Below, piece by piece: positions 24,601 through 29,995 of a stretch of 30,344 bases of DNA. The stretch's first letter is position 1. Every line of letters starts with the position of its first letter. The notes beneath the pieces are model-generated. The model searched no databases, was not told the DNA's origin, and saw only the letters and a list, made by a program, of their open reading frames with translations. This DNA comes from a virus, in IMG/VR virus record IMGVR_UViG_3300042936_001079, positions 1 through 30,344 of that record; one strand, 5' to 3'. Both the position numbers and the translations under genes were made by a program.

Positions 24601-24629
24601 ATAGTTAGAGATAATAATAATAAAATTTC

Positions 24630-24672
24630 GCGGGTGTGCAATAACAAATACATTTCTTATTGGGACACCCGC
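24630..24672. repeat. Cassette dyad 1 (GCGGGTG arm type)
   Basis: GCGGGTG-tg-CAATAA (24630-24644) pairs with TTATTG-gga-CACCCGC (24657-24672), loop of 12. Same architecture as the other array dyads (outer arm, short mismatch, CAAT-type inner arm), and the same outer arm as dyad 10 at the far end of the array. Confidence 0.7.
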
Positions 24673-24728
24673 CCATAAATAGTAATAGAAAATGTGTGTT
24701 AAATTGAGATAGAAATAGAAACCTAAAC

Positions 24729-24769
24729 GCTGGCGTTCATTGTGCTTTAGCACGGGTATGAACGCCAGC
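24729..24769. repeat. Cassette dyad 2 (GCTGGCGTTCAT arm type)
   Basis: GCTGGCGTTCAT (24729-24740) pairs perfectly with ATGAACGCCAGC (24758-24769); inside is GTGC-TTTA-GCAC. Almost identical to dyad 4 at 25350, as part of the duplicated segment. Confidence 0.8.
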
Positions 24770-24781
24770 CCGTAAACGCAG

Positions 24782-24813
24782 AAAGGGCGTGAACCCGAAG
24801 GTTCACGCCCTTT
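24782..24813 (-). terminator. Terminator of cassette gene 24840 (bidirectional hairpin)
   Basis: Perfect 13-pair stem AAAGGGCGTGAAC / GTTCACGCCCTTT with a UUCG-type loop when read on the minus strand. Short T stretch only, so it may also act as an mRNA end-protector. A smaller ATCCC/GGGAT hairpin sits by the stop codon. Confidence 0.8.
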
Positions 24814-24839
24814 CCTACTGCCCTTATCCCGTATGGGGA

Positions 24840-25145
24840 TTACTTCTTGCTCTTGCCCTTGCGCTTCATCAACGACACAACGCAACGACCATCGCTAGTC
24901 CATTGGACTGTGACAGCAATTCCATTTGTCTCGGCGACTTTCTCAACACGACCACGATACTTAGCCTTGTGGTTTGTGTAATCGTCATCGTTTGGATTAC
25001 CTTGTGCGATATCCCAAACAAACGCATCACCGTCAATGGCAGGATCAAGAGCCAACAACTCTTGCTCTAGCGCAGGATCAGAGTAAGGCGCTCTGCCCCT
25101 ACCCTTTAGTTCGCCTACTAGATCACTCAGGTTTATCTTAGCCAT
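24840..25145 (-). CDS. Cassette protein, paralogue 1, 101 aa
   Basis: Unknown function. First 21 residues (MAKINLSDLVGELKGRGRAP plus Y) are identical to paralogue 2 at 25462, and LDPAIDGDAFV, AQGNP, DYTNHKA and VQWTS are shared. C-terminus is a lysine-rich tail (KRKGKSKK), suggesting contact with nucleic acid. AAAGAGAGATAACACT precedes the ATG. Own promoter, leader hairpin and terminator. Confidence 0.85.
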   Translation of the reverse strand: MAKINLSDLVGELKGRGRAPYSDPALEQELLALDPAIDGDAFVWDIAQGNPNDDDYTNHKAKYRGRVEKVAETNGIAVTVQWTSDGRCVVSLMKRKGKSKK

Positions 25146-25233
25146 AGTGTTATCTCTCTTTCATTAGGTTATGTCATAGCAAGTCGCTATGACATCTATA
25201 AACTTATCATATGAATAGAAATGTGTACTTAAG
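25146..25233 (-). promoter_or_regulatory. Cassette promoter and leader hairpin (gene 24840)
   Basis: Minus-strand block TTAAGTACACATTTC...TATGAT AAG (-10 at 25206-25211), followed in the leader by a near-perfect hairpin TGTCATAGC / GCTATGACA ahead of the ribosome site. The block is shared by eight cassettes. Confidence 0.7.
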
Positions 25234-25258
25234 CCAGTTGAGAGTGTGTAACCCTTTG

Positions 25259-25301
25259 GCTGGAGTGCAATTGCTATGCTAAAGCGCCCTTGCCCTCCAG
25301 C
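25259..25301. repeat. Cassette dyad 3 (GCTGGAG arm type)
   Basis: GCTGGAG (25259-25265) pairs with CTCCAGC (25295-25301) around the conserved core CAATTGCTATGCTaAAGCGC. Lies just upstream of the promoter of gene 24840 on the minus strand. Confidence 0.75.
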
Positions 25302-25349
25302 GGGGATTAGAAATGTGTATTAAAGAAGAGAGAGAGTGTGAACCCAAGG
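25302..25349 (-). promoter_or_regulatory. Promoter-block relic lacking the -10
   Basis: Contains TTTAATACACATTTCTAATC on the minus strand as in the live promoters, but the sequence then runs into CCCCGCTGGAGG instead of TATGNTAAG. It sits downstream of a gene and is followed by no start codon; interpreted as a leftover from duplication. A similar degenerate relic lies at about 24680-24705. Confidence 0.55.
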
Positions 25350-25392
25350 CGCTGGCGTTCATTGTGCTTTAGCACGGGCATGAACGCCAGCG
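25350..25392. repeat. Cassette dyad 4 (GCTGGCGTTCAT arm type)
   Basis: CGCTGGCGTTCAT (25350-25362) pairs perfectly with ATGAACGCCAGCG (25380-25392), inner GTGC/GCAC. Near-identical to dyad 2, 622 bases away. Confidence 0.8.
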
Positions 25393-25406
25393 AATAAACA
25401 AAAAAA

Positions 25407-25432
25407 GGGCGTGAACCCGAAGGTCCACGCCC
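25407..25432 (-). terminator. Terminator of cassette gene 25462
   Basis: Minus-strand stem GGGCGTGGACC / GGTTCACGCCC (one G-U) with TTCG loop, followed by seven T. Confidence 0.9.
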
Positions 25433-25461
25433 TTTTCTTTACTTTACCTATCCGTTAAGGA

Positions 25462-25776
25462 TTAACGGCTTTTCTTTGCCTTTGCCTTTTTCGGCTTGAC
25501 CAATGACACAATCATTCTGCCAGTGGATGTCCACTGAACACTGATTGCGATATTGTTCTTTTCAGCAATTTTCTCAGCACGACCTCGCCACATTGCCTTG
25601 TGGTTCGTGTAATCCTCATCATCAGGATTGCCTTGTGCCAATTCGCATACGAATGCGTCACCGTCAATCGCAGGGTCAAGTTCTTTGATCTCTGCCTCTA
25701 ACGCTGGGTTTTCGTATGGTGCTCGTCCTCGTCCTTTAAGTTCTCCAACGAGGTCACTCAAGTTAATCTTTGCCAT
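25462..25776 (-). CDS. Cassette protein, paralogue 2, 104 aa
   Basis: Second copy of the gene at 24840 with the same N-terminus and domain order, diverged mainly at residues 22-33 and in the tail, here even more basic (KPKKAKAKKSR). AAAAGGAAAAACAAC precedes the ATG. Gene, terminator and following dyad are all repeated with a spacing of about 622-631 bases, so the two arose by tandem duplication. Function unknown. Confidence 0.85.
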   Translation of the reverse strand: MAKINLSDLVGELKGRGRAPYENPALEAEIKELDPAIDGDAFVCELAQGNPDDEDYTNHKAMWRGRAEKIAEKNNIAISVQWTSTGRMIVSLVKPKKAKAKKSR

Positions 25777-25863
25777 TGTTGTTTTTCCTTTTCTCTAGGT
25801 AATGTCTCGGCAAGTCGCTTTGACATAAATAAACTTAGCATATGAATAGAAATGTGTATTAAA
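25777..25863 (-). promoter_or_regulatory. Cassette promoter and leader hairpin (gene 25462)
   Basis: Promoter block TTTAATACACATTTCTATTC then TATGCTAAG; leader hairpin reduced to ATGTC/GACAT around AAAGCGACTTGCCGA, related to but weaker than the one of gene 24840. Confidence 0.7.
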
Positions 25864-25888
25864 CGCAGTTGACAGTGTGTTCCTCAAT

Positions 25889-25932
25889 GGCTGGAGTGCA
25901 ATAGCTATGCTGAAGCGCTCTCGCCCACCAGC
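25889..25932. repeat. Cassette dyad 5
   Basis: Arms GCTGG/CCAGC around GCAATAGCTATGCTGAAGCGC; five clean pairs, then mismatches. Followed on the plus strand by the second conserved dyad (CTC..AAGAATAGA..GAGTGCTGTGT) at about 25941-25975. Confidence 0.65.
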
Positions 25933-26003
25933 ACGAATAGAGAGCACATACTCAAGAATAGAGAGTGCTGTGTACTGCGTGGTCGGTGTACGGGCAACAA
26001 AAA

Positions 26004-26041
26004 AACCCCCAAGCCCGAAGGCTTGAGGGTTTGATTGTCGG
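26004..26041 (-). terminator. Terminator of the three-gene cassette
   Basis: Minus-strand AACCCTCAAGCC-TTCG-GGCTTGGGGGTT followed by a run of T, then TGCCCG, a tail shared by several cassettes. Confidence 0.9.
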
Positions 26042-26048
26042 GGGGAGA

Positions 26049-26222
26049 TTATTTAGTGTGTCTTGCTCTCTCTGAGATAATACCGTGCCTATGAACACGC
26101 TTTATCTCGGCGCTGATTACTTGCTTTATCTCCCACTGTTCGCCACCGTCAATGACAGATAGGATATGGCGTATTGCAGACAGTGGCACTGTATCTGCCC
26201 TGCCGTTACTGTTGCGCCTCAT
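26049..26222 (-). CDS. Small basic cassette protein, 57 aa
   Basis: ATG 26222 overlaps the stop of the upstream gene (ATGA) with GGAGCG eight bases before, so it is preferred over a start at 26243. Arg-rich ends (MRRNSNGRAD, RVHRHGIISERARHTK) around a helical centre. Not recognised; nucleic-acid binding plausible. Confidence 0.75.
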   Translation of the reverse strand: MRRNSNGRADTVPLSAIRHILSVIDGGEQWEIKQVISAEIKRVHRHGIISERARHTK

Positions 26223-26461
26223 ACGGCTCGCTCCAGCACGCAATCACCGTCTACTGTCCAAAGGACAAATACCGAGTGGATAAAGTGATCCTCAAGTAGT
26301 TGTTGCTGGATATCCTCTTTGTAATCTCTCACGGCTCTAGCGTCTTGTTGGAATATCCCCCGAGGTATCTTGAGAGCCTGGATGATTATAGCGTCACCCT
26401 TGATCTCCATAGTGGATGCCTCATCTCGGATGTATTGAGCCATATTGTTGCTTATTTTCAT
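26219..26461 (-). CDS. Cassette protein, 80 aa
   Basis: Strong AAGGAGG site nine bases before the ATG, located in the end of the upstream gene (TAATG overlap). Helix-beta-helix-beta look (GDAIIIQALKIPRGIF, HSVFVLWTVDGDCVLE). The ending WTVDGDCV recalls the WTSDGRCVVSL end of the 24840 paralogues. Function unknown. Confidence 0.8.
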   Translation of the reverse strand: MKISNNMAQYIRDEASTMEIKGDAIIIQALKIPRGIFQQDARAVRDYKEDIQQQLLEDHFIHSVFVLWTVDGDCVLERAV

Positions 26462-26631
26462 TATGCGACCCTCCTTAGGGTACTAACGGGGACTTTTCTT
26501 GAGTATTTGTTTTGGTAAGTTGTTGGGTAGATCAGGGCATAGCCCCAACCGTCAATCTCGGCAATCCTGAAGAAACCGTCACCACCGACAATCTCTACAA
26601 AGTTACCAATCTCCAGTTTATCGTTATCCAT
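26461..26631 (-). CDS. Small beta-barrel-like cassette protein, 56 aa
   Basis: First gene of the three-gene cassette. GGAGGG lies a few bases upstream of ATG 26631, directly after the leader hairpin. LEIGNFVEIVGGDGFFRIAE (residues 6-25) then GWGYALIYP look like a small SH3/KOW-type barrel; tail basic (STLRRVA). Stop overlaps the next ATG. Function unknown. Confidence 0.78.
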   Translation of the reverse strand: MDNDKLEIGNFVEIVGGDGFFRIAEIDGWGYALIYPTTYQNKYSRKVPVSTLRRVA

Positions 26632-26705
26632 ATTCCCTCCGTGTTGATGTTGTAGGTGTCACCAACACAAATAAACTTATCATATGATTAGAAATGTGTA
26701 TTCAA
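26632..26705 (-). promoter_or_regulatory. Cassette promoter and leader hairpin (gene 26461)
   Basis: Promoter block with TATGATAAGTTTA; leader hairpin GTGTTGGTG / CATCAACAC (one G-U) with loop ACACCTACAA; the 3' arm runs straight into the ribosome site CGGAGGG. Confidence 0.75.
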
Positions 26706-26733
26706 GGGAGTTGAGAGTGTGTACCCTGTGAGC

Positions 26734-26772
26734 TGGTGTGCAATTGCTGTGCTGAAGCGCCCTCGCCCACCA
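26734..26772. repeat. Cassette dyad 6 (TGGTG arm type)
   Basis: TGGTG/CACCA around CAATTGCTGTGCTGAAGCGC. The second conserved dyad follows at about 26783-26817. Confidence 0.7.
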
Positions 26773-26845
26773 TCGCATAATGAGAGAGCATACTCAAGAA
26801 TAGAGAGTGCTGTGTGCTTGTGTGCTGGAGTTCGGGCAACAAAAA

Positions 26846-26875
26846 AACCCCCCAAGCCTTTCGGCTCAGAGGGTT
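26846..26875 (-). terminator. Terminator of cassette gene 26901
   Basis: Minus-strand AACCCTCTGAGCC-GAAA-GGCTTGGGGGGTT then a T-run. GNRA-type loop instead of UUCG. Confidence 0.9.
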
Positions 26876-26900
26876 CGTTTGTTTGGGGGGTAAATAGTCG

Positions 26901-27197
26901 CTATTGAGCGATTGTGTTTGCTTTGGCTTCGGCTTTGGCTTTATCCGTTGTCTGGGCTTTGATTGTCTGTGAGTAGGAACGAACGAGGAACAAGAGCCCT
27001 TGTGTTGATGGGTGATTGCTTCCGTTCTTGCTCAATGCCTGCTCGTACTTATCGGTGAGCATTGCCAATTGCTCGCCCAGTGTCATTACGGTATCGCCGT
27101 TGCGCATATCGGCTGTGACAGCCTTGATGCGCTTGTTGGCTTGTACCTGCTCACGGCTCTTGTTAGCCCGTGCTTGTGCCTTGCTTGTCTTTTTCAT
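26901..27197 (-). CDS. Basic helical cassette protein, 98 aa
   Basis: Lys/Arg/Gln/Ala-rich: KAQARANKSREQVQANKRIK at the start and TIKAQTTDKAKAEAKANTIA at the end, with a leucine-containing helix between. The composition is that of a nucleic-acid-binding or nucleoid-like helix protein, but no family is recognised. AAGGGGC ribosome site just after the leader hairpin. Confidence 0.8.
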   Translation of the reverse strand: MKKTSKAQARANKSREQVQANKRIKAVTADMRNGDTVMTLGEQLAMLTDKYEQALSKNGSNHPSTQGLLFLVRSYSQTIKAQTTDKAKAEAKANTIAQ

Positions 27198-27272
27198 TGT
27201 TGCCCCTTGTTGGTGTTGTAGGTGTCACCAACAGACATAACCTTAGCATAGGGATAGAAATGTGTATTAAAG
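27198..27272 (-). promoter_or_regulatory. Cassette promoter and leader hairpin (gene 26901)
   Basis: Promoter block with TATGCTAAGGTTA; perfect leader hairpin TGTTGGTG / CACCAACA (27208-27233), loop ACACCTACAA. Confidence 0.78.
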
Positions 27273-27297
27273 GTAGTTGAGAGTCTATAAGCCTTTC

Positions 27298-27340
27298 GTT
27301 GGTGCACAATTGCTATGCTGAAGCGCTCTCGCACACCAAC
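27298..27340. repeat. Cassette dyad 7 (GTTGGTG arm type)
   Basis: GTTGGTG (27298-27304) pairs with CACCAAC (27334-27340) around CAATTGCTATGCTGAAGCGC; second conserved dyad follows at about 27352-27385. Confidence 0.75.
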
Positions 27341-27412
27341 ACGCAATGAGAGAGCACACTCAAGAATAGAGAGTGCTGTGTGCTTGCTTGATGGTGTTCG
27401 GGCAAAAAAAAA

Positions 27413-27440
27413 TCCCCCCAAGCCCGAAGGCTCAGGGGGA
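27413..27440 (-). terminator. Terminator of cassette gene 27464
   Basis: Minus-strand CCCCCTGAGCC-TTCG-GGCTTGGGGGG then a run of nine T after one A. Confidence 0.9.
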
Positions 27441-27463
27441 CTACACGAATTACTTGCTCTTAC

Positions 27464-27682
27464 TTACTCGCCGTCTGGACCAACGCCCAACTCGTAGAAC
27501 AACATTGCCTTAAGTATTGCGTTTGCGTCACCCAAGACCCGAACACGCTGATCAACGGCTTCACGGGCAGTTACTATCCCTCTACGCATTTGTTCATCAA
27601 TCCGATCTAACTCCTTAAGTTTGTCAAGCAGTCTCGGCATTGGGGGCTTCAGTTCCACCCCGTCAATTACTGGATATTGCAT
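27464..27682 (-). CDS. Helical cassette protein, 72 aa
   Basis: MQYPVIDGVELKPPMPRLLD then a long charged helix (KELDRIDEQMRRGIVTAREA) and a C-terminal hydrophobic helix (AILKAMLFYELG). Not recognised. AAGGAGAGAC ribosome site at the base of the leader hairpin. Confidence 0.8.
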   Translation of the reverse strand: MQYPVIDGVELKPPMPRLLDKLKELDRIDEQMRRGIVTAREAVDQRVRVLGDANAILKAMLFYELGVGPDGE

Positions 27683-27755
27683 TGTCTCTCCTTGTTGATG
27701 TTGTAGTTGTCATCAACAAGATAACCTTACCATGTGATAAGAAATGCGTACTAAA
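27683..27755 (-). promoter_or_regulatory. Cassette promoter and leader hairpin (gene 27464)
   Basis: Block CTTTAGTACGCATTTC then CATGGTAAGGTTA; hairpin TTGTTGATG / CATCAACAA. Compared with the TGTTGGTG/CACCAACA version the G-C to A-T change is compensated on both arms. Confidence 0.75.
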
Positions 27756-27782
27756 GAGAGTTGAGAGCCTGTACCTCATTGA

Positions 27783-27823
27783 TTGGTGCACAATTGCTAT
27801 GCTGAAGCGCTCTCGCACACCAA
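27783..27823. repeat. Cassette dyad 8 (TTGGTG arm type)
   Basis: TTGGTG/CACCAA around CAATTGCTATGCTGAAGCGC; second conserved dyad follows at about 27835-27868. Nearly identical to dyad 7. Confidence 0.75.
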
Positions 27824-27896
27824 CACGCAATGAGAGAGCACACTCAAGAATAGAGAGTGCTGTGTGCTTGCTTGATGGTGTTCGGGCACAAAAAAA

Positions 27897-27922
27897 GGGG
27901 AGGAGCCGAAGCCCCTCCCCTT
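27897..27922 (-). terminator. Terminator of the two-gene cassette
   Basis: Minus-strand GGGGAGGGGC-TTCG-GCTCCTCCCC then seven T. Confidence 0.92.
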
Positions 27923-27927
27923 TGTAC

Positions 27928-28017
27928 TTACTTGCGTAGGTATGTCTTGACCATAGTGACTGCGCCCCAGATCACCATAACCATCATTGCCGTAAGCGGG
28001 TCAATGTTGATATCCAT
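27928..28017 (-). CDS. 29-aa membrane peptide
   Basis: TAATG overlap with the upstream stop and a very strong GGGGGGTGA site. Residues 7-23 (PLTAMMVMVIWGAVTMV) form one membrane span, followed by KTYLRK, so N-out/C-in by the positive-inside rule. Too short for ordinary gene calling but well supported by signals. Role unknown. Confidence 0.7.
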   Translation of the reverse strand: MDINIDPLTAMMVMVIWGAVTMVKTYLRK

Positions 28018-28289
28018 TATTCACCCCCCTCTTTATACTCGTAGGAATAAACAATGAAGTTGCTTTGGTCATCAACCATTACCCACTCACCAATGACTTC
28101 CAGTTCCGCATAGAAGCGAACTGGGAACGCATACTTCTTTATGCGATCCTCTGTATTCCACTCACCTATTGGGTATGAGTGAGCCATTAGCGCATTGACA
28201 AACGCTTGTAACAATGGCAAGTGTTCTACCATCTTAGCGTCAGGGAAGTGGCGAAGTACCAATTCCATTGTTTCGTTTGGACTAGGCAT
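28017..28289 (-). CDS. Cassette protein, 90 aa
   Basis: Helical N-terminal half (ETMELVLRHFPDAKMVEHLP) and a beta-rich acidic C-terminal half (VIGEWVMVDDQSNFIVYSYE). Not recognised. AAGGAGACAGTA ribosome site after the leader hairpin. Co-transcribed and coupled with the 29-aa membrane peptide. Confidence 0.8.
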   Translation of the reverse strand: MPSPNETMELVLRHFPDAKMVEHLPLLQAFVNALMAHSYPIGEWNTEDRIKKYAFPVRFYAELEVIGEWVMVDDQSNFIVYSYEYKEGGE

Positions 28290-28363
28290 TACTGTCTCCT
28301 TGTTACCGTTGTAGTTGTCGGCAACAAGATAACCTTACTATATGAATAGAAATGTGTATTAAA
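28290..28363 (-). promoter_or_regulatory. Cassette promoter and leader hairpin (gene 28017)
   Basis: Block TTTAATACACATTTCTATTC then TATAGTAAGGTTA; hairpin TTGTTgCCG / CGGtAACAA with loop ACAACTACAA. The CCG/CGG pair replaces GTG/CAC of other copies on both arms. Confidence 0.72.
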
Positions 28364-28391
28364 GCCAGTTCAGAGTGTATTCCCCTTTCGT

Positions 28392-28430
28392 TGGTGCGCA
28401 ATTGCTATGCTGAAGCGCTCTCGCACACCA
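28392..28430. repeat. Cassette dyad 9a (TGGTG arm type)
   Basis: TGGTGcGC / GCaCACCA around AATTGCTATGCTGAAGCGC, next to a variant second dyad (CTCAAGAGTAGAGAG) at about 28448-28482. Confidence 0.7.
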
Positions 28431-28506
28431 CCGCACGAATAGAGACCATATGCTCAAGAGTAGAGAGTGCTGTGTGCGTGCCTGGGGGTGTTCGGGCACA
28501 AAAAAA

Positions 28507-28532
28507 ACCCCCAAGCCCGAAGGCTTGAGGGT
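28507..28532 (-). terminator. Terminator of cassette gene 28559
   Basis: Minus-strand ACCCTCAAGCC-TTCG-GGCTTGGGGG then a T-run. Confidence 0.9.
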
Positions 28533-28558
28533 TGATTGTGTCGGGGTGATTGGTTTGA

Positions 28559-28834
28559 CTAGAACTCTATATGTTCCTCAATGGCTTGCGTGGGATTTTG
28601 TTTCATCTCACGCTGATCGGCTTCCAAGCCATACTGAATCATTTGTGCACGATGGTCAAAATCCTGAACCATGCGTGTCAATTGTTCAGCGGTTCTTTGC
28701 CAACCGCTTACTCTGCAATAGGCACTTGCGTTCGTGAAACGCAGAGCACCTTTTTGCAGTCGTACTACCAAGTTGGCGATAAGCCGAAGCATCTCTTCTT
28801 CTTGGGTCTCGCTAGGTGATGAATGTTTTGCCAT
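28559..28834 (-). CDS. Helical cassette protein, 91 aa
   Basis: ATG 28834 (MAKHSSPSET) follows a CAGGAGGTTTATC site; an upstream in-frame ATG at 28867 lies where the other cassettes have their untranslated leader. Mostly helical with basic and Gln-rich segments (RLIANLVVRLQKGALRF, QREMKQNPTQAIEEH). Not recognised. Its leader lacks the clean conserved hairpin. Confidence 0.8.
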   Translation of the reverse strand: MAKHSSPSETQEEEMLRLIANLVVRLQKGALRFTNASAYCRVSGWQRTAEQLTRMVQDFDHRAQMIQYGLEADQREMKQNPTQAIEEHIEF

Positions 28835-28928
28835 GATAAACCTCCTGAGTTTATTTGTTGTTGGCATTGGGATACTTCATCACCCCGACATCTATTACCT
28901 TACCATGTGAATAGAAATGTGTATTCAA
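28835..28928 (-). promoter_or_regulatory. Cassette promoter, divergent leader (gene 28559)
   Basis: Promoter block TTGAATACACATTTCTATTC then CATGGTAAGGTAA. The leader starts ATGTCGGGGTGATG and lacks the ACNACTACAA loop; only this cassette differs. Confidence 0.65.
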
Positions 28929-28956
28929 GGCAGTTGAGCGTGTGTCACCCACTGAT

Positions 28957-28995
28957 TGGTGTGCAATTGCTATGCTGAAGCGCCCTTGCCCACCA
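28957..28995. repeat. Cassette dyad 9b (TGGTG arm type)
   Basis: TGGTG-tg-CAA...TTG-cc-CACCA around TTGCTATGCTGAAGCGC; variant second dyad follows at about 29008-29040. Confidence 0.72.
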
Positions 28996-29071
28996 CCGCA
29001 TGCGAAGAGAGAATGTGCTCAAGAGTAGAGAGGGTTGTGTGCTGTGAAACGGGAGTTTAGACACAAAAAAA

Positions 29072-29107
29072 AGCGTGTGATGTGTCGGGGGCGACACACC
29101 ACACGCT
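29072..29107 (-). terminator. Terminator of cassette gene 29116
   Basis: Minus-strand AGCGTGTGGTGTGTCG / CGACACATCACACGCT (one G-U) with a short C-rich loop, then eight T. Confidence 0.92.
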
Positions 29108-29115
29108 TGCTCGCA

Positions 29116-29382
29116 TTACTTCCAATTGCTCCAATCCTCAGACACCTCGTCTGCGGCACCTGTAGCAATCTCATGGGCACTGTACTTGCTCTCCATGTAG
29201 ATATCGTAACCCTTGTCTATCTCATTGTCTAATGCCCTAGACAAGTCCTTGATCTGATCGTGTTGCTCACCCAAACGGCGCTGGAACTTATCGCTCGCTT
29301 GACCGTAGCCCATTGACCAGCCAATCACTGCGCACAAGGCGCAGAGACCCATGACCATGACCATTACCAATTCCTCACTCAT
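29116..29382 (-). CDS. Membrane-anchored coiled-coil cassette protein, 88 aa
   Basis: Residues 5-27 are a hydrophobic span (LVMVMVMGLCALCAVIGWSM), then a charged coiled-coil helix (KFQRRLGEQHDQIKDLSRAL) and an acidic end. Resembles a membrane-tethered spacer protein; an i-spanin-like outline is noted, but an actinobacterial host without a classical outer membrane would make that unlikely. CGGAGAGAC ribosome site after the leader hairpin. Confidence 0.8.
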   Translation of the reverse strand: MSEELVMVMVMGLCALCAVIGWSMGYGQASDKFQRRLGEQHDQIKDLSRALDNEIDKGYDIYMESKYSAHEIATGAADEVSEDWSNWK

Positions 29383-29455
29383 TGTCTCTCCGTGTTGGCG
29401 TTGTAGTTGTCACCAACAAGATAACCTTAGCATACGAATAGAAATGCGCATTAAA
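29383..29455 (-). promoter_or_regulatory. Cassette promoter and leader hairpin (gene 29116)
   Basis: Block TTTAATGCGCATTTCTATTC then TATGCTAAGGTTA; leader hairpin TGTTGG / CCAACA with loop TGACAACTACAACG. First cassette of the array in transcription order. Confidence 0.75.
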
Positions 29456-29481
29456 GAGAGTTGAGAGTCTGTTCCCCAATT

Positions 29482-29524
29482 GCGGGTGTACAATCTTTAT
29501 GCTGAAGCAAGATTGATCACCCGC
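29482..29524. repeat. Cassette dyad 10, the most perfect copy
   Basis: GCGGGTG-ta-CAATCTT (29482-29497) pairs with AAGATTG-at-CACCCGC (29509-29524), 14 perfect pairs, loop TATGCTGAAGC. Relative to other copies the inner arm CAATTGC became CAATCTT and its partner changed to match. Confidence 0.85.
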
Positions 29525-29665
29525 CATGAATTGACCATACACGACACAAGAAATATCTACGGCTGAAAACATAAAGTAACTCTCATAAAATATGTACTAA
29601 AATTTGGGATGGGATGGTTCGGTGCGGGTAATGTACTAGATAGAAAGTTCGGGGGAATAAAAAAA
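29525..29665. other. Array boundary spacer
   Basis: No gene. A degenerate promoter-like block (minus-strand TTTTAGTACATATTTTATGAG, in two pieces around 29585-29605) suggests a decayed cassette start. Ends at the T-run of the FmdB-side terminator. Confidence 0.45.
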
Positions 29666-29728
29666 GACCGCTAAACATGCACATGCCCCTGGGGGTTGAG
29701 CCCAGAGGCATCTGCACCTATAACGGTC
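29658..29728 (-). terminator. Long hairpin terminator after the FmdB-like gene
   Basis: Read on the minus strand: GACCG, TGCA, ATGCC, CTGGG then CCCAG, GGCAT, TGCA, CGGTC in mirror order with small bulges (29666-29728), followed by seven T. Unusually long (63 bases). Confidence 0.85.
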
Positions 29729-29806
29729 CTAAGGTTAGCTTTCGCTGCCTCTCCTAGTATAGGCAGAGAATTATTTGTCTCATAATAATAATGTATGGGT
29801 GTATTA
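29729..29806. other. 3' spacer of the FmdB-like gene
   Basis: Short stretch between stop and terminator with a CTCTGCC/GGCAG-type hairpin. A 60-codon minus frame crosses it and the terminator but is not credited. Confidence 0.4.
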
Positions 29807-29995
29807 TTATTTCTTGGAGTTGTTCTGGGTGTTACGGTAGAAGCCGTGCCCACGGAACTGAATTCCAGGCGGGGAATATGATTGTTTGAGCGAAGCTCCG
29901 CATTCGGGACAATCTTTTGTTTTCTGGTCTTCCAGAATAGATCTTACTTCTTCGTAGGTATGCCCATTAGGGCAGCGATAGTTGTACTGTGGCAT
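29807..29995 (-). CDS. FmdB-like zinc-ribbon protein, 62 aa
   Basis: PQYNYRCPNGHTYEEVRSI with Cys8 and His12, then DCPECGASL with Cys29 and Cys32, then SPPGIQFRGHGFYRN: the full FmdB-family zinc-ribbon pattern at normal length. Named after a formamidase regulator, but the biochemical role is unclear. ATG 29995 has no ribosome site; minus-strand TATACT (30002-30007) lies exactly six bases before it, so translation is probably leaderless. Confidence 0.9.
   Translation of the reverse strand: MPQYNYRCPNGHTYEEVRSILEDQKTKDCPECGASLKQSYSPPGIQFRGHGFYRNTQNNSKK

Follow-up and report, generated by a model that had tools for sequence, protein, structure and literature searches.

Covarying hairpins upstream of putative promoters in a phage array of small gene cassettes

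What could be the role of a hairpin that keeps its pairing while its arms change, and that sits between the terminator of one small operon and the promoter of the next? This question is raised by the IMG/VR virus record IMGVR_UViG_3300042936_001079, a linear fragment of 30,344 bp that we analyzed over its whole length (hereafter, the window). Rightward genes at ~33% GC fill positions 1 to ~23.9 kb and include the end of a terminase gene, a WhiB-like gene, a DUF6551 gene and one tRNA-Arg, the only match in an Rfam scan of the window. Beyond them lies a leftward array that spans 29528 down to 24626 at 46-49% GC. We judge it an even call that this is an early-gene array in which a folded site of class-specific form lies upstream in each promoter and is read by a phage-type-specific factor, likeliest a protein of the family that we name MAKINLSDL. 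Few hairpins are known that conserve their structure yet lie outside the expected transcript, and for a DNA hairpin read as a promoter signal the principal case worked out is that of the early promoters of phage N4. The analysis is based on sequence throughout, and the contigs compared are fragments.

Hairpins and their spacing from a conserved box

An earlier note on this DNA had described eight minus-strand units with a shared layout, separated by ten dyads with one core. The layout is borne out by direct repeats (154 nt, eight copies), terminators, hairpins and a conserved box: each unit runs from the preceding terminator through a hairpin, the conserved box, a -10-like motif, a leader hairpin and one to three small genes to its own terminator. 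The core CAATTGCTATGCTGAAGCGC is indeed present in eight dyads (seven with at most one mismatch, one at 29491 with five), but there are 11 dyads, and they are of three types. The eight type A hairpins, all on the minus strand, precede units 1 to 8 in order at 29478-29528, 28951-29001, 28386-28436, 27778-27828, 27294-27344, 26728-26778, 25886-25936 and 25255-25305. The first of them has a GC-TTCA-GC apex with a 3-nt bulge on the 3' side and matches a covariance model at 59 bits; the others were placed by alignment and matches to the model. The two GCTGGCGTTCAT/ATGAACGCCAGC dyads, which the note counted as the same kind, instead form an inverted type B with the same apex on the opposite strand. 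They lie on the plus strand at 25347-25395, 3' of the regulator-family gene of unit 7, and at 24725-24773, 3' of that of unit 8 (a covariance-model match). The former has a perfect 12-bp stem and a TTTA apex on the plus strand, and scores 27.4 bits on that strand versus 20.5 bits on the minus strand; a type B hairpin in the related contig L053 scores 48 bits versus 25 on the other strand. The GCGGGTG dyad, also placed in the common family, is instead a third type, type C, with a AAATGTATTT loop (24626-24676, strand unassigned); it closes the array and shows a compensatory change, from CAATAA/TTATTG in the window to CAAAAA/TTTTTG in the relative L020. In L020, which is 108.8 kb long, covariance-model hairpin matches are confined to the array.

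The claim that changes on one arm are matched on the other was upheld by two shuffling tests, which show the pairing itself to be conserved. In the first, 25 type A hairpins from three phages were aligned over 18 pairs, gap-free save one bulge base. Paired cells amount to 87%, versus 77 ± 1 in shuffles, and there are 47 double-change cells versus 17.7 ± 3.4, a count reached in none of 500 shuffles. Double changes occur in 9 of the 18 pairs, and pairing falls to 25-39% when the partner is slid by 1-3 columns. Even the apical pair changes on both sides, from GC-TTYA-GC to GG-TTTA-CC. The second test pooled 96 type A hairpins from 12 phages and shuffled right arms inside each phage for 500 rounds: the two apex classes have 357 and 504 Watson-Crick pairs, versus 245 ± 13 and 335 ± 17 in shuffles, and again no round reaches the observed values, although hairpins within a phage and from close phages are not independent and the counts overstate the number of events. 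Type B stems are Watson-Crick in 247 of 252 pairs, with compensated differences at most positions.

Importantly, the non-canonical pairs are not symmetric. Across the 96 type A hairpins, the gene-sense strand has 128 G·T and 10 A·C pairs, while the opposite strand would give the reverse (128 A·C, 10 G·T); therefore one strand is conserved as the folded strand. Such a bias would be expected of RNA and of single-stranded DNA alike.

Each type A hairpin is followed on the minus strand by a putative promoter block. In unit 1 (29424-29455), it contains the box TTTAATGCGCATTTCT and the -10-like motif TAAGGT; the blocks of units 2 to 8 were recognized by repeat conservation at 28897-28928, 28332-28363, 27724-27755, 27240-27271, 26674-26705, 25832-25863 and 25201-25232. 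The conserved box reads TTKAATACACATTTYT, and a -10-like TAWGKT begins 26-27 nt past its start. The promoters were called by their conservation and position, because a scan with the sigma-70 consensus gave no promoter excess in the array region. An upstream copy of the box (A') was considered as the promoter and dropped, as it is without a -10 motif and often missing. A reading of the box as a nut-like boxA was also dropped, since boxA was matched only in part.

The distance from the start of the hairpin apex to the box is nearly constant: 53 nt in 55 copies, 52 in 29 and 51 in 9, with a mean of 52.3 and a standard deviation of 1.4 across 98 copies from 12 phages. The ~27 nt separating the arm from the box have no sequence common to both apex classes, and the A' copy, where present, lies 39-61 nt off at a variable distance. 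The constant spacing thus indicates that the hairpin is coupled to the promoter, and counts against an element that acts purely on read-through transcripts.

The terminators of units 1 to 7, each a minus-strand hairpin with a T-run, are at 29071-29108, 28506-28533, 27894-27923, 27411-27442, 26845-26876, 26003-26032 and 25400-25439. Unit 8 ends in a terminator-like hairpin with a weak T tail (24783-24819, minus strand) that the terminator scan did not score as a terminator. Terminator-like sites number 14 versus 4.1 ± 2.2 in shuffles. By their positions, the dyads fall between terminator and promoter and would lie outside the mRNA, as the note expected.

Apex classes and cassette exchange between related phages

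A search of IMG/VR for the exact core gave one true relative, L014 (33.8 kb). More arrays were found through the MAKINLSDL-family protein together with a neighboring FmdB-like protein: L020 (L018 is the same phage), L037 (identical to L038), L039, L042, L048, L049, L050 (about equal to L051), L052, L053 and L057 (identical to L058). Arrays are thus known from 11 distinct IMG/VR phages beyond the window. The exact-core matches L008 and L009 were judged to be chance, and L029, found by a promoter-motif search, is an unrelated Bacteroidetes-like contig. In INPHARED, neither the array DNA nor the family protein has a match, and the protein has no relative in 84,980 bacterial and archaeal genomes.

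The arrays fall into two apex classes. The window, L014, L020, L052 and L053 have TTYA apices; L037, L039, L042, L048, L049, L050 and L057 have GNNTA apices. Each array keeps to a single class: when the fixed position was rescanned without regard to class, no array proved a clear mixture, with one ambiguous match in L052. Phages of different class can otherwise be close. The flanks of the window and L037 are 94.0% identical on one side of the array (810 nt) and 94.3% on the other (4,718 nt); for L020 (TTYA) and L042 (GNNTA), 3,820 nt of flanking DNA align at 93.9% identity. Judged from these alignments, apex class does not track the core genome.

The same two pairs show what is exchanged. The L020 and L042 arrays have in common genes that are 98-100% identical, whereas every unit has had its apex, its spacer and the stretch from box to -10 motif replaced; for one unit identity begins just past the -10 region. 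The window and L037 have a common cassette, 88% identical, behind different hairpins. The rule appears to be that the gene moves and the control hairpin remains with the phage type. That genes, once transferred, stand behind hairpins of the matching class suggests a reader of the class in the recipient phage. The earlier note had also proposed that cassettes are gained and shuffled on a common chassis; gain, loss and exchange are all seen when related arrays are compared. In no relative are the genes kept and the dyads gone, and dyads are present in every related array that we found. Across the arrays, 19 gene families recur in varied combinations and orders, and the arrays look like a pool of exchangeable small early genes, mostly of unknown function. 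With ~100 variants from nature in two apex classes, and with phages that are ~94% identical having switched class at least twice, the recognition code is directly testable.

A candidate reader and competing explanations

All arrays whose distal end was reached finish with two or three units that code for paralogues from a single ~100-amino acid family, here named MAKINLSDL. In the window these are the proteins of unit 7 (104 aa, 25462-25776) and unit 8 (101 aa, 24840-25145), both on the minus strand and both proposed as cognate regulators. Conserved in the family are K-x-N-L, R-G-R, N-H-K, R-x-R, a W and a G, and most members have a short basic C-terminal tail. A type B hairpin lies 69-100 nt past the stop codon of family genes in every array where the scan found one; those of L049 and one of L014 were missed by the scan and are visible by eye. 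In the protein tree, one branch separates the two apex classes (support 90/88). No relative of the family was found in Pfam or the PDB. Its structure model (mean predicted local distance difference test score, 81) has the order helix, strand, helix, strand, strand, and matches one uncultured-phage protein of unknown function in BFVD (E 1.9e-5). Several R3H and IF3-C entries at Z ~4 in the structure comparison are a lead only. The N-terminal helix-RGR-helix recalls, as we see it, the DNA-binding domain of Lsr2. A more distant paralogue (beginning MKRVPKGSVKVMKRGR) occurs earlier in several arrays, e.g., at 8288-8545 in L020.

These observations could be brought together as follows. The array would be a region of early genes, akin to a host-takeover module, in a relative of the Stanwilliamsviridae; there, each small operon would have its own terminator, its own promoter and an upstream site acting as a folded single strand, presumably of DNA rather than RNA. 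The arms of the hairpin would be free to vary as long as they pair, and the apex, GC-TTYA-GC or GC-GNNTA-GC with its 3' bulge, would be read by sequence. A phage-type-specific factor would recognize the apex and set the activity of all array promoters jointly, in a direction that we can only presume. The likeliest factor is the ~100-aa MAKINLSDL-family protein of the last two or three units, which adjoins its own perfect inverted sites; it would bind the hairpins and may also control its own genes. More tentatively, this may be a new form of phage promoter control, in which a strand-specific DNA hairpin tag, set at a constant distance upstream, is read by a small protein encoded in the array and swapped genes must adopt the resident class.

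Several points weigh against this proposal. The gap from TTGAAT to TAWGKT is 20-21 nt, which is long for sigma-70. The tree support of 90/88 is moderate, the L042 contig stops short of the protein genes, and the protein genes are physically linked to the hairpins, so that co-inheritance alone could explain how protein and hairpin match in the window and L037. No confident fold match was obtained for the family protein (best Foldseek E values 0.1 and 0.25; VIA Z at most 5.7, over 58 residues). The type B hairpins are inverted and nearly without G·T pairs, which a purely one-strand reading does not predict, and the constant spacing may partly reflect descent.

We consider it rather unlikely, but worth serious attention, that the hairpin acts in RNA instead, in a read-through transcript or, for type B, in a convergent one, where a small basic phage protein would bind it and arrest or antiterminate transcription, in the manner of HK022 Nun or lambda N at boxB, so that units are insulated or coupled. 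The gene-sense bias of G·T over A·C pairs would be expected. Type A hairpins lie 3' of each terminator in the direction of the genes and type B hairpins are oriented for transcripts that converge on the distal end, where the plus-strand genes of the window point. The apex classes vary between phages as boxB loops do, and the basic tail of most family members and the R3H domains among the weak structural matches are in keeping with this reading. However, an element that acts only in RNA needs no fixed 52-53 nt to a promoter box, strong terminators come before the hairpin, and type B is tied to one gene family and not to array ends generally.

The hairpins could also be passive insulators or backup terminators against read-through, with no dedicated factor. 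Their position between terminator and promoter and their stable stems would suit this role, and actinobacterial terminators often lack U-tracts. We nonetheless find this improbable, since the conserved apex and bulge, the homogeneity of class and the class-matching after exchange need a factor that reads sequence.

It seems less probable still that class homogeneity arose by gene conversion among the array repeats, with no selection to match a factor. The arrays do consist of repeats, which are prone to homogenize, but here the arms are diverse within an array while apex, spacer and box are uniform, and the intervening terminators and genes are not homogenized.

Finally, we give very little credence to recombination sites that insert or shuffle cassettes, like integron attC sites or repetitive extragenic palindromes (REP) and their associated transposases (RAYT): one hairpin per cassette in the same orientation, a strand-specific fold and cassette turnover between phages would fit, but five contigs, one of 108.8 kb, encode no tyrosine recombinase or Y1 transposase although positive controls were detected, and exchange boundaries fall in terminators, leaders and genes at no fixed point of the hairpin, which keeps the class of the recipient. 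The searches concerned PF00589 for the integron recombinase, absent from the five incomplete contigs (controls positive in 14/14 genomes), and PF01797 for the REP/RAYT Y1 (HUH) transposase, absent from the same five. An integron array would have promoterless cassettes joined exactly at attC, whereas the units here each come with a promoter block and terminator of their own, and their junctions are at no fixed hairpin position.

Among known systems, the N4 early promoters come closest as a worked case of a DNA hairpin whose stem bases are free but must pair. The promoters of the N4 virion RNA polymerase contain a DNA hairpin with conserved and variable bases, the variable ones being free if the stem pairs, and one strand is read (PMC4496689). 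The array hairpins likewise combine a conserved apex, freely varying paired arms and one conserved strand. They differ in that the N4 hairpin is centered at -11 and its reader is a phage RNA polymerase (PMC4496689), whereas the array apex is ~79 nt upstream of the -10-like motif and 52-53 nt from the box, if transcription starts after the motif. A search for a T7-like polymerase (PF00940) had no match in three contigs, but its control set had none either; a 4375-aa tail protein matches PhageMin_Tail and no polymerase.

The boxB elements of lambda N and HK022 Nun resemble the array hairpins in their phage-specific apex, variable paired arms and small basic cognate protein (here a candidate), but boxB lies in the transcribed leader, after boxA, and the array hairpin upstream of the predicted promoter. 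The stoperators of cluster A mycobacteriophages are many one-orientation sites per genome, with a phage-type-specific consensus matched to a cognate protein (PMC6550527). They are asymmetric 13-bp duplex sites without a hairpin, bound by the immunity repressor and most of them away from promoters, whereas the array unit is a ~40-nt hairpin with compensated arms.

The extended start-associated sequences (ESAS) of cluster K mycobacteriophages, which the earlier note named as the nearest concept, did not prove a good model. The passages on them in PMC3203893 present 17-bp inverted repeats with a conserved consensus beside a 13-bp ribosome-binding-site repeat. The likeness is in inverted repeats upstream of many small genes, with a consensus that varies between phages, but ESAS arms are conserved in sequence and those passages describe no compensatory arm variation (PMC3203893). 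ESAS repeats also lie directly before the start codon, whereas in the array the arms differ through compensated changes and each hairpin precedes the promoter block; moreover, the 13-bp start-associated sequence GGGATAGGAGCCC is found in none of the leaders of the eight units. The array does not appear to be an ESAS system, an integron or a set of N4-type promoters.

Phage affinities, array genes and neighboring elements

The terminase is 42% identical to that of StarPlatinum, and terminase and gene order together place these phages near Stanwilliamsviridae. In the gene order of StarPlatinum, a Streptomyces phage, the equivalent position is taken by ~25 small genes in a leftward array, inside a 12,199-bp direct terminal repeat (100%). 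By this synteny, the window array is probably a terminal-repeat, early region; in the metagenomic contigs, ends are collapsed or missing. The small genes of StarPlatinum likewise mostly have their own terminator and a promoter-like spacer, they lie before the glycosyltransferase and ribonucleotide reductase genes, and their GC content is above that of the rest of the genome (56% vs 47-49%). The differences are that the covariance model finds no hairpin of the array type in StarPlatinum and that its promoters, by eye, have the form TTGNNN-17/18-TAGACT. Rhodococcus phage Grayson has a leftward block of small genes at the corresponding place, arranged as operons. The SPO1 host-takeover module also has small early genes with their own promoters in a ~12-kb terminal region, but no structure-conserved upstream hairpin is reported for it in PMC6873191. 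The WhiB-like gene and this kinship suggest an actinobacterial host; whiB-like genes are also present in the phages described for Planktophila, a freshwater genus (PMC10202952).

Third-position GC is 0.505 in the array genes (24840-29382) and 0.221 in the rightward genes (1-23880), perhaps because early genes are adapted to the codon use of the host, or because they come from a pool of their own. All array genes are on the minus strand, and searches of their proteins against Pfam and PHROGs gave nothing firm. The unit 1 gene (88 aa, 29116-29382) has a weak spanin-like match (E 0.005). The unit 2 gene (90 aa, 28559-28831) has a homologue in L014 that is 67% identical. Unit 3 begins with a 90-aa gene (28017-28289), followed by a 29-aa open reading frame (27928-28017), and unit 4 has a 72-aa gene (27464-27682). 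The unit 5 gene (98 aa, 26901-27197) is the one held in common with L037, in the ~88% identical cassette behind a hairpin of the other class. Unit 6 (26049-26631) has three overlapping genes at 26461-26631, 26219-26461 and 26049-26243.

The leaders of all eight units contain Shine-Dalgarno-like GGAGA/GGAGG sites. Just 5' of the ribosome-binding site, each leader has a second hairpin (e.g., 29390-29420, minus strand), with stems that vary yet pair; in relatives they include GTTGGTG..CGCCAAC and TGTCAAGG..CCTTGACA. This hairpin is probably a stabilizer of the 5' end of the mRNA. In L039 and L042, the A' box copy sits in the loop of an extra paired stem, such as TGCGATGAGAT/ATCTCATCGCA (L039, 10087-10200 and 11478-11580), which suggests a more complex fold upstream of some hairpins.

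Outside the array, L014 and L017 (IMGVR_UViG_3300032321_001491) have a run of several prolyl-hydroxylase-like proteins beside structural genes, seen on reading the open reading frames alone. In the window, a minus-strand region at 29659-29760, 3' of the FmdB-like gene (29807-29995), holds the element ACCTTAGGACCGTTATAG at 29718-29735, followed by a long hairpin with arms that differ between phages. We take ACCTTAGGACCGTTATAG to be complementary, over all of its 18 nt, to the part of 23S rRNA around m5U1939 that is universally conserved. The element is at the equivalent position in all relatives examined, and in L052, L053 and L048 the match to the rRNA complement extends to ~27/28 nt. In IMG/VR, 68 stretches contain the 18-mer CTTAGGACCGTTATAGGT; many of these seem unrelated, and each has a strong hairpin next, differing in sequence. 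No Rfam family matched the element, which has the look of a phage RNA not described so far and able, perhaps, to pair with 23S rRNA.

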